Assembly: GCF_900177325.1 (NCBI RefSeq)
Contig: NZ_FXBL01000004.1
Span: 1,674,001 to 1,738,000 of the forward strand
Length of the DNA: 64,000 nt
Direction: 5' to 3'
Origin: Mesorhizobium australicum
Lineage (GTDB): Bacteria; Pseudomonadota; Alphaproteobacteria; Rhizobiales; Rhizobiaceae
Shown: one piece after another, positions 35,535-61,007 of the stretch
Numbering within the stretch: the stretch's first letter is position 1
Layout of the letters: each line of letters opens with the position of its first letter
Notes under the pieces: model-generated
The model's database searches: none
Told to the model about the DNA's origin: nothing
Seen by the model: the letters and a program-made list of their open reading frames with translations, nothing else
Position numbers and translations under genes: made by a program

Positions 35535-35562
35535 TGCATTGCAACAAATATATTGCACTGCA
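35535..35562 (+). promoter_or_regulatory. Two PhaR-type boxes upstream of the phasin gene
   Basis: TGCATTGCA (35535-35543) and TGCACTGCA (35554-35562) both fit TGC-N3-GCA, the pattern bound by PhaR repressors of phasin genes, and their centres are 19 bases apart. The second overlaps the predicted -35. PhaR would leave the DNA when polyhydroxybutyrate granules form. The motif is seen; PhaR control is inference. Confidence 0.6.
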
Positions 35563-35580
35563 CAATAATATGGTCTATAT
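35553..35580 (+). promoter_or_regulatory. Predicted phasin promoter
   Basis: TTGCAC (35553-35558), 16 bases, then CTATAT (35575-35580), close to the alphaproteobacterial sigma-70 pattern TTGAC-N17-CTATAT. The transcript would start near 35587, leaving a leader of about 68 bases before the phasin ATG. Confidence 0.5.
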
Positions 35581-35654: not shown

Positions 35655-36101
35655 ATGAGCAAGACCGCCAAGGACACCATTGAATTCCCCACCTTCGACG
35701 CTTCGAAAGCCACCGAGCAGCTGCGTGATTTCACGGAGAAGGGCATGGAGCAGACGAAGGAAGTCTACGCGAAGCTGAAGTCCGGCGCCGAAGAGGCCCA
35801 GAAGACGTTCGAATCCACCTATGAAACCGCCAAGACCTCGAGCGCCGACCTGTCGCTGAAGACGATCGGTGCGATGCGCGCCAATGCCGAGTCGGCCTTC
35901 GCGCATCTCGAAGCGCTCGTCGGCGTGAAGTCGGTCTCCGAGTTCATCGAGCTGCAGACCGCCTGGCTGCGCAAGAGCGTCGAGATGGGCGTCGAGCAGG
36001 CCAAGGACATCCAGGCCGCCTCCACGAAGGCCGCCGAGGACGTCGCCAAGCCGTTCAAGACCGCCTTCGAGAAGTCGCTGAAGGACCTCAAGGTCGCCTG
36101 A
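35655..36101 (+). CDS. phaP: Phasin family protein
   Basis: A 148-residue amphipathic, mostly helical protein with the Phasin_2 pattern: EQLRDFTEKGMEQTKEVYAK near the N-terminus and SEFIELQTAWLRKSVEMGVEQAKDI in the second half. Phasins coat polyhydroxybutyrate granules. The ribosome site is GGAAGGAAG (35640-35648). It has its own promoter with PhaR-type boxes, is divergent from the PAS kinase gene, and its 3' UTR carries the three-hairpin RNA. Confidence 0.9.
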   Translation: MSKTAKDTIEFPTFDASKATEQLRDFTEKGMEQTKEVYAKLKSGAEEAQKTFESTYETAKTSSADLSLKTIGAMRANAESAFAHLEALVGVKSVSEFIELQTAWLRKSVEMGVEQAKDIQAASTKAAEDVAKPFKTAFEKSLKDLKVA

Positions 36102-36121
36102 CGATCTCAGGCGCAAGCAAT

Positions 36122-36229
36122 CCCGCGAGCGGTTCTCCTCCTCCCAACCGCTCCGGGTCGGTGGCCGGCTTCTCCTCCCGCCGGCGATCATGGAAAGGAC
36201 CGGGTCCTCCCCCCGGTCTTTTTCTTTTT
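36122..36229 (+). ncRNA. Three-hairpin anti-Shine-Dalgarno RNA (alpha-r14/cuckoo-like)
   Basis: Three hairpins follow the phasin stop, each with a CCUCC-containing loop. Hairpin A: GAGCGGTT/AACCGCTC, loop CTCCTCCTCCC (36135-36145), extended by CCCG/CGGG over a bulged C. Hairpin B: GCCGGC/GCCGGC, loop TTCTCCTCCC (36170-36179). Hairpin C: GACCGGG/CCCGGTC, loop TCCTCCC (36205-36211), which is also the terminator. Repeated exposed CUCCUCCC loops are the hallmark of the rhizobial alpha-r14 and 'cuckoo' sRNA groups, which can pair with ribosome sites. It may be processed from the phasin mRNA or have its own start. Confidence 0.65.
36198..36229 (+). terminator. Rho-independent terminator of phasin and its 3' RNA
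   Basis: A seven-pair stem GACCGGG / CCCGGTC followed by TTTTTCTTTTT. It ends the phasin transcript and forms the third hairpin of the anti-Shine-Dalgarno RNA. Confidence 0.9.
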
Positions 36230-36329: not shown

Positions 36330-36406
36330 GCCGTTGTAGCTCAGATGGTTAGAGCGCCGGATTGTGGATCCGGAGGTCCTCGGTTCGATCCCGAGCAACG
36401 GTACCA
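36330..36406 (+). tRNA. tRNA-His (anticodon GTG)
   Basis: A complete 77-base cloverleaf with encoded CCA. Acceptor GCCGTTG / CAACGGT (first pair G-U), D arm GCTC/GAGC, anticodon arm CCGGA-TTGTGGA-TCCGG and T arm CTCGG-TTCGATC-CCGAG. The discriminator base is A73 and the base before position 1 is T, so the usual G-1:C73 pair of bacterial tRNA-His is absent. This form is known from a group of alphaproteobacteria including Rhizobiales. Confidence 0.97.
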
Positions 36407-60701: not shown

Positions 60702-61007
60702 ATGACGACGCTTGACCGCACCACGTTCCCGCTGACCGGCACGACGCGCCCGGCCGTGGCCGTGCGGGTGATCAACGCCATCGCCAACCTCCTGCGCGCC
60801 TGGAAAAACCGCCGCGCGGTCTACCGCCTCGGCGCGATGACCGATTGGGAGTTGGCCGACATCGGCCTGACCCGCGGTGACCTGCATGTCGCCTGGCGCG
60901 AGCCGTTCGGCGTCGATCCGACCACCACGCTCGGAACCCTGGCCGAAGCGCGTGCCGTTCAGGCGATGCGCGACGCCACGGAGCGTGCCGCACGCCAGGT
61001 CTGCTGA
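60702..61007 (+). CDS. DUF1127 (YjiS-like) protein
   Basis: A 101-residue protein with a DUF1127 domain in the middle (LLRAWKNRRAVYRLGAMTDWELADIGLTRGDL, about residues 31-62) and a polar C-terminal tail. DUF1127 proteins are small, Arg-rich and can act in RNA metabolism; in Rhodobacter one (CcaF1) is co-transcribed with CCUCCUCCC-motif sRNAs. GGAGAG precedes ATG. A C-rich-loop hairpin RNA follows here too. Confidence 0.88.
   Translation: MTTLDRTTFPLTGTTRPAVAVRVINAIANLLRAWKNRRAVYRLGAMTDWELADIGLTRGDLHVAWREPFGVDPTTTLGTLAEARAVQAMRDATERAARQVC

Follow-up and report, generated by a model that had tools for sequence, protein, structure and literature searches.

An ar14-family RNA with anti-Shine-Dalgarno loops behind the phasin gene phaP of Mesorhizobium australicum

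The 3' untranslated region (3' UTR) of the phasin gene phaP of Mesorhizobium australicum contains a member of the ar14 family of small RNAs (Rfam RF02344), which consists of three hairpins that each display an anti-Shine-Dalgarno (aSD) motif in the loop. It lies between phaP and a tRNA-His gene in the stretch of DNA analyzed here (the window, 64,000 nt of contig NZ_FXBL01000004.1; Table 1). It seems probable to us that this RNA is made as part of the transcript of the phaP promoter, is released from it by processing, and acts as a trans repressor through its aSD loops, in a way that is coupled to polyhydroxybutyrate (PHB) and its sensor PhaR. Transcription would begin at the phaP promoter, run through phaP and stop at hairpin 3, and a ribonuclease, probably RNase E, would cut in the short single-stranded stretch after the stop codon to leave an RNA of ~105-115 nt. 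The three loops would mimic the 3' end of 16S rRNA and pair with the purine-rich ribosome binding sites (RBSs) of many mRNAs, whose translation would be repressed; PHB granules would titrate PhaR, so that RNA and phasin would be produced jointly, and carbon storage would be coupled to the down-regulation of other mRNAs, perhaps those of uptake systems. The processing, trans-silencing and PhaR control in this outline are modeled on relatives of the element, and its functional link to PHB is argued from the promoter and from precedent.

Structure and family of the element

Folding returns, at exactly the same loop coordinates, the three stacked hairpins with C/U-rich aSD loops that had been proposed in a first-pass annotation of this DNA. 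The minimum free energy of positions 36117-36228 is -56.3 kcal/mol (z = -5.16), and none of 200 dinucleotide shuffles was equally good. All three loops carry the aSD motif, and those of hairpins 2 and 3 contain CUCCUCCC and UCCUCCC, respectively, not the complete CCUCCUCCC. Hairpin 3 was also correctly taken to be an intrinsic terminator; its 13 bp stem and U-rich run constitute the Rho-independent terminator that is a trait of ar14 RNAs. A covariance-model search bears out the suggested alpha-r14/"cuckoo" assignment, and the element is an ar14 family member by the Rfam gathering threshold (Table 1); ar14 and tRNA were the only models with gathering-level matches across the window. The upstream gene, already read as a phasin from its sequence, matches Pfam Phasin_2.

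Table 1. Coordinates of features in the phaP region of the window
Feature	Position	Strand	Evidence or remark
Distal PhaR-box core TGCATTGCA, phaP promoter	35535..35543	+	Fits the core YGCRNYGCR of the S. meliloti PhaR/AniA consensus (PMC12542648)
Proximal PhaR box ATATATTGCACTGCACAATAA	35548..35568	+	Full 21-nt consensus match; core 35554-35562
-10-like hexamer CTATAT, phaP promoter (predicted)	35575..35580	+	Sequence
phaP, phasin, 148 aa, host gene	35655..36101	+	Pfam Phasin_2 PF09361, 57.8 bits, E 1.4e-15
Spacer from phaP stop to stem 1, 20 nt; putative processing zone	36102..36121	+	
ar14 sRNA element, RF02344	36117..36225	+	62.0 bits (gathering 58.8); model 1-123 matched in full
Hairpin 1	36122..36157	+	Loop 36135-36145 = CUCCUCCUCCC, aSD (folding)
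Hairpin 2	36160..36189	+	Loop 36170-36179 = UUCUCCUCCC, aSD (folding)
Hairpin 3, also intrinsic terminator	36192..36224	+	aSD loop 36205-36211 UCCUCCC, then U-rich run (folding)
tRNA-His (gtg), conserved syntenic neighbor	36330..36406	+	ARAGORN, Rfam

Cuckoo RNAs have two to four hairpins. SmelA075, SmelA099 and the cuckoo RNAs, as they appear in the available part of PMC3927594, resemble the element in having three or four hairpins, CCUCCUCCC loops and variable stems. The founder of the ar14 family, NfeR1 (Smr14C2) of S. meliloti, likewise has three hairpins, an aSD motif in each loop, variable stems and a length of ~110-125 nt (its transcript is given as about 123 nt; PMC10746234). In the portions of PMC10746234 and PMC7143759 that were available, NfeR1 is described as silencing mRNAs through three redundant aSD loops without a need for Hfq, and aSD-loop sRNAs as reprogramming transport and nitrogen genes in S. 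meliloti. NfeR1 differs from the window element in being an independent gene that responds to nitrogen and stress signals, with a dedicated sigma-70 promoter to which LsrB and NtrC bind (PMC10746234), whereas the element lies 20 nt behind phaP. Six NfeR1-type copies are reported in S. meliloti, one of which was reliably detected by northern blot in the conditions tested (PMC7143759, in the part available), and so membership in the family does not prove activity.

Two other systems share different aspects of the arrangement. The CcsR1-4 RNAs (RF02791) of Rhodobacter sphaeroides come from the 3' UTR of ccaF1 (RSP_6037) with the involvement of RNase E; like the window element, they are CCUCCUCCC-motif RNAs (the motif is taken here from the Rfam family name) behind a small gene, and are thought to share that gene's promoter (PMC8625941, in part). 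They differ in their host, ccaF1 rather than a phasin, and the CcsR1 model remains below its cut-off at the element (19.1 and 15.1 bits vs 65.3). MmgR of S. meliloti is an sRNA linked to PHB and phasins that is repressed by PhaR/AniA (PMC12542648, in part), but it acts on phasin expression, whereas the window RNA is encoded together with a phasin and has aSD loops. In the window element the structure is that of an ar14 RNA and the location is the 3' UTR of a PHB gene.

Conservation and distribution among relatives

Searching 151 genomes of the GTDB family with a tRNA-His pattern yielded 112 with a match, and the counts given here rest on these 112. A phasin gene lies upstream of tRNA-His in 90 of them (93 of 115 if three genus loci, L161-L163, are included; these were added since they had ar14 hits, and they stand outside the 90-genome count and inside the 93 loci, the phasin tree and the 41 phaP promoters discussed below). 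The spacers of the 90 genomes hold three aSD hairpins in 23 cases, two in 15, one in 4 and none in 48; with at most one in 52 of the 90, the element is dispensable. The repeated loops had been judged to be beyond chance, and this holds up well: among 4650 Markov-1 shuffled spacers (50 for each of the 93) three hairpins never occurred and two occurred in 19. In Mesorhizobium comanense (67.9 bits) and M. composti (59.1 bits) the order is also phaP, ar14, tRNA-His, both copies being above the cut-off. An Rfam scan of 18 phaP-linked loci placed 13 above the ar14 cut-off and five (L116, L117, L143, L162 and L163) below it, and the L143 copy was above the cut-off (63.1 bits) in a separate genome-wide search. 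A phasin search in named genomes gave 14 loci, ten of which (L009-L018) have no nearby tRNA gene; they are loci other than the syntenic one and do not enter the 90-genome count. In two genus mates (L116 and L117) the middle hairpin still folds, its loop is short and the aSD word is lost, which makes them natural loop mutants. Behind tRNA-His the window has a 433-aa ORF with a Tlde1 domain (PF10908; 36677-37978, + strand).

Both the stem covariation and the loop conservation that the first-pass annotation had expected of relatives were found. An alignment of 25 three-hairpin copies drawn from the 93 phasin loci (L161 and L163 among them), preselected by a rule that requires an aSD loop on a stem, has three loops that are invariant or nearly so and stems that vary; at 15 of 22 consensus pairs at least one sequence has both sides altered with the pair kept. 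A test that made no demand for a stem took the TCCTCCC words found up to 160 nt from the phaP stop codon in the 90 loci: 91 of 100 are fully contained in a hairpin loop, compared with 8 of 392 control 7-mers. Conserved loops on highly variable yet still paired stems are a trait of ar14 RNAs. This pattern also bears on the notion that the region is no more than an elaborate terminator or an mRNA-stabilizing 3' UTR whose C/U loops have no function in trans. Hairpin 3 is indeed an intrinsic terminator, and S. meliloti Ak57, which has the same order of PAS-domain gene, phaP1 and tRNA-His as well as published PhaR boxes, has a plain terminator of similar stem sequence behind phaP1. However, a terminator requires one hairpin and no specific loop, and the loops of the 25 selected sequences stay the same or nearly so while the stems change, so we regard that notion as improbable.

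The Ak57 3' region was inspected by eye and had no ar14 match at the gathering level. Its plain terminator (L276:1346-1420) has a stem that resembles window hairpin 3 and a plain loop, also by eye, and it looks as if an aSD loop may have been gained or lost within a terminator. This may be why the S. meliloti papers, in the parts available, are silent on a phaP host.

A phasin tree of the 93 rows groups every one of the 41 that have at least two aSD hairpins into a single clade of 49 rows (support 99/90), and 40 of the 41 belong to a clade of 47 (100/97). A second clade, of 34 rows (98/89), contains none. The hairpin label requires eight changes on this tree, five of them forced by supported branches. 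A single gain of the phaP-linked ar14 followed by several losses is likely and not proved, since the bootstrap is not settled and the root was placed at the midpoint only. The position behind phaP, which the first-pass annotation had regarded as new, is thus a conserved arrangement of a large clade and not a peculiarity of the M. australicum genome. The ar14-phasin link was not found in the literature searched, which did not extend to the 2012 alpha-proteobacterial sRNA survey and the 2015 cuckoo paper. A table of PMC6337395, a Herbaspirillum paper, lists ar14, but its available part lacks the word "phasin". Neither term turned up in the available main text of PMC5596092, which deals with sRNAs of Mesorhizobium huakuii. 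We did not find this host position described, and do not claim that it is unpublished.

The phaP promoter and the origin of the transcript

The phaP promoter contains two PhaR-type cores 19 bp apart, the nearer of which lies inside a full match, with zero mismatches, to the 21-nt S. meliloti PhaR consensus WNWDDNYGCRNYGCRNHHWNW; the RNA would therefore be made together with the phasin. In many of the phaP promoters compared, CTATAT or TTATAT follows the proximal box (by eye). The genome encodes a PhaR-type protein (PF07879, 106 bits), and the PhaR of S. meliloti binds and represses phaP1 and phaP2, each of whose promoters has two such boxes, and is sequestered by accumulated PHB (PMC12542648, in the portion available). 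A pattern search with the S. meliloti phaP1 promoter matched 1 of 394 genomes (L275), with two mismatches. The 21-nt consensus is not enriched across the 5.86-Mb genome, which has 23 zero-mismatch sites and 28 for the reversed control pattern. One of the 23 ends 19 nt upstream of another ar14 copy (L003), and another precedes a distant second phasin-like gene by ~100 nt. In front of that gene (L272:2160-2800 on G000:C4, 27% identity) are two PhaR-type cores, and inspection of its 3' end by eye gave no aSD array.

The element lies in the phaP 3' UTR and ends at the terminator, as do 3' UTR-derived sRNAs, which in addition have no promoter between gene and RNA. Stem 1 follows the phaP stop codon after a gap of 7-34 nt in all but one of the 33 usable copies, and of 91 nt in that one (33 of the 41 phaP-linked copies were usable, and the hairpin rule that defines the gap can miss outer stem pairs), and a separate promoter would consequently need to sit in the phaP coding sequence. 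It is rather unlikely, in our judgment, that the ar14 RNA is transcribed independently, from a promoter of its own in the last part of the phaP coding region, and that it lies behind phaP by coincidence. An independent gene of this kind would have a parallel in NfeR1, the best-studied ar14 RNA, with its own sigma-70 promoter and its control by LsrB and NtrC (PMC10746234, in part), and in two further copies in this genome (L002 and L003) that are preceded by neither a phasin nor a DUF1127 frame and have TGCA-rich sequence upstream; the promoter scans made here have little power against it. Against it stand the short spacer, which turns any such promoter into coding sequence, and the rarity of a -10-like TANNNT just upstream of stem 1, present in 1 of 33 phaP-linked, 1 of 11 DUF1127-linked and 12 of 31 free-standing copies (Fisher p 4e-4 for 1/33 vs 12/31). 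This contrast is a pointer and not proof, because the free-standing rate (0.39) is hardly above that of shuffles (0.34). The sigma-70 promoter score over 100 nt of the phaP-linked copies is no better than that of shuffles (median 10.5 vs 11.0); the comparison set was 32 "stand-alone" loci in which DUF1127-hosted copies are included. Both the score and TANNNT separate hosted from free-standing copies weakly, and so they are used as indications. An NfeR1-type promoter was not recognized between phaP and ar14 in these low-power scans of sigma-70-like signals only, which would indicate that no promoter is present there. The suggestion in the first-pass annotation of an sRNA cut from the phaP mRNA would thus agree best with the data.

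Other ar14 copies and the PhaR-type core

The genome has four ar14 copies, all above the cut-off, three of them beyond the phaP-linked one. The best-scoring (L001:1353-1620, G000:C4, around 3283967-3284086) is separated by 18 nt from a DUF1127 gene (46 aa) in front of it. This resembles the ccaF1-CcsR arrangement of Rhodobacter, and we take ccaF1 to be a DUF1127 gene. Residence in a 3' UTR thus has precedent, in L001 behind its DUF1127 gene and in CcsR1-4 from the ccaF1 3' UTR (PMC8625941, in part). Matches to ar14 at E <= 0.001 were present in 45 of 61 searched genomes, and 37 had one above the cut-off. From all ar14 matches a subset of 90 loci was sorted by cluster (the phaP-linked copies were gathered separately): 49 of the 90 clusters, which occupy 89 distinct places, are free-standing, 28 follow DUF1127, 1 follows phaP, and 12, set aside, are tandem copies or have other, distant hosts. 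Ten of the 90 loci have no cluster by the hairpin rule, and six of these (L034, L045, L169, L191, L199 and L212) pass Rfam. "Free-standing" means that no phasin or DUF1127 frame lies within 520 nt upstream, other hosts being outside the definition; "DUF1127-hosted" means a gap of at most 128 nt (21 of the 28 within 22 nt, the others 56-128 nt), and one G053 unit is counted twice among the 28 (L174 and L220). Tandem arrays of aSD hairpins also occur, with 16 consecutive in L219 (G029) and 10 in L047 (G033) by the hairpin rule. A DUF1127 domain is encoded inside the window (60780-60887, + strand), and inspection of 801 bp around it by eye revealed no aSD array; the one structure noted was a terminator-like hairpin whose loop reads CTCCCAA.

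This spread of hosts speaks to a further alternative, in which the loops would act in cis by pairing with the phaP RBS to autoregulate phasin synthesis. Loop 1 is computed to pair with the phaP RBS at -8.2 kcal/mol, but its pairing with a canonical Shine-Dalgarno sequence is stronger (-10.5), and the same module lies behind DUF1127 in 28 of 90 clusters and with neither host in 49 of 90, where there is no phaP in cis. We think it very improbable that the element works in this way, and favor repression in trans.

The 220 nt upstream contain the core TGCRNYGCA in 29 of 49 free-standing units (shuffled mean 0.7), 20 of 28 DUF1127-hosted units (0.35), 38 of 41 phaP genes with ar14 (0.75) and 48 of 52 without it (0.85). 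The wider core YGCRNYGCR is found at 33 of 49 free-standing and 22 of 28 DUF1127-hosted units. Six control words, which used the same letters or a different spacing, were counted as well; five of them reached at most 8 of 49 and 5 of 28, some of these being above shuffled means of 3-4 (free-standing) and about 1.5 (DUF1127-hosted). TGCRNYGCA is present in 5 of 27 AbcR/ar15 promoters (27 of 32 matches, the five weakest dropped), which are LsrB-controlled in S. meliloti, and in 401 of 4152 GC-matched flank windows, a background that is if anything too high because it includes the L005-L018 windows, which hold phaP promoters. The excess for ar14 over AbcR (49/77 vs 5/27) has a Fisher p of 9e-5, or 4e-5 with the doubled place removed (49/76); these values are optimistic, because related sequences are not independent. 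Counted by genus, which is the only correction for relatedness applied here, 26 of 30 genera have at least one ar14 unit preceded by the core, where 6.3 are expected at the flank rate.

These counts raise the possibility, about which we are doubtful, that the PHB-sensing regulator PhaR/AniA might control all ar14 RNAs of this bacterial family, whether they stand alone or follow DUF1127 or phaP. The core in AbcR promoters argues against it, as does an excess over shuffles of the spacing variant YGCRNNYGCR (11/49 and 8/28; means 3.4 and 1.5). The LsrB-type word TGCA-N6-GCAT, in either orientation, accompanies 17 of 49 free-standing and 17 of 28 DUF1127-hosted units, and is found in 0 of 41 phaP promoters with ar14 and 1 of 52 without. 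PhaR can only be put forward as a candidate reader of the ar14 boxes, since LsrB half-sites overlap or adjoin many of them; a pull-down with the NfeR1 promoter identified LsrB and NtrC, not PhaR, in the available part of PMC10746234. If PhaR did control the family, stored carbon would set the dose of a translation-masking RNA, and carriage on the phasin mRNA would be the tightest form of that link.

The clade with phaP-linked ar14 includes Mesorhizobium species, outside the S. meliloti model. Through a conserved aSD RNA within the phasin mRNA, carbon storage in these bacteria would have a direct, dose-linked translational output.
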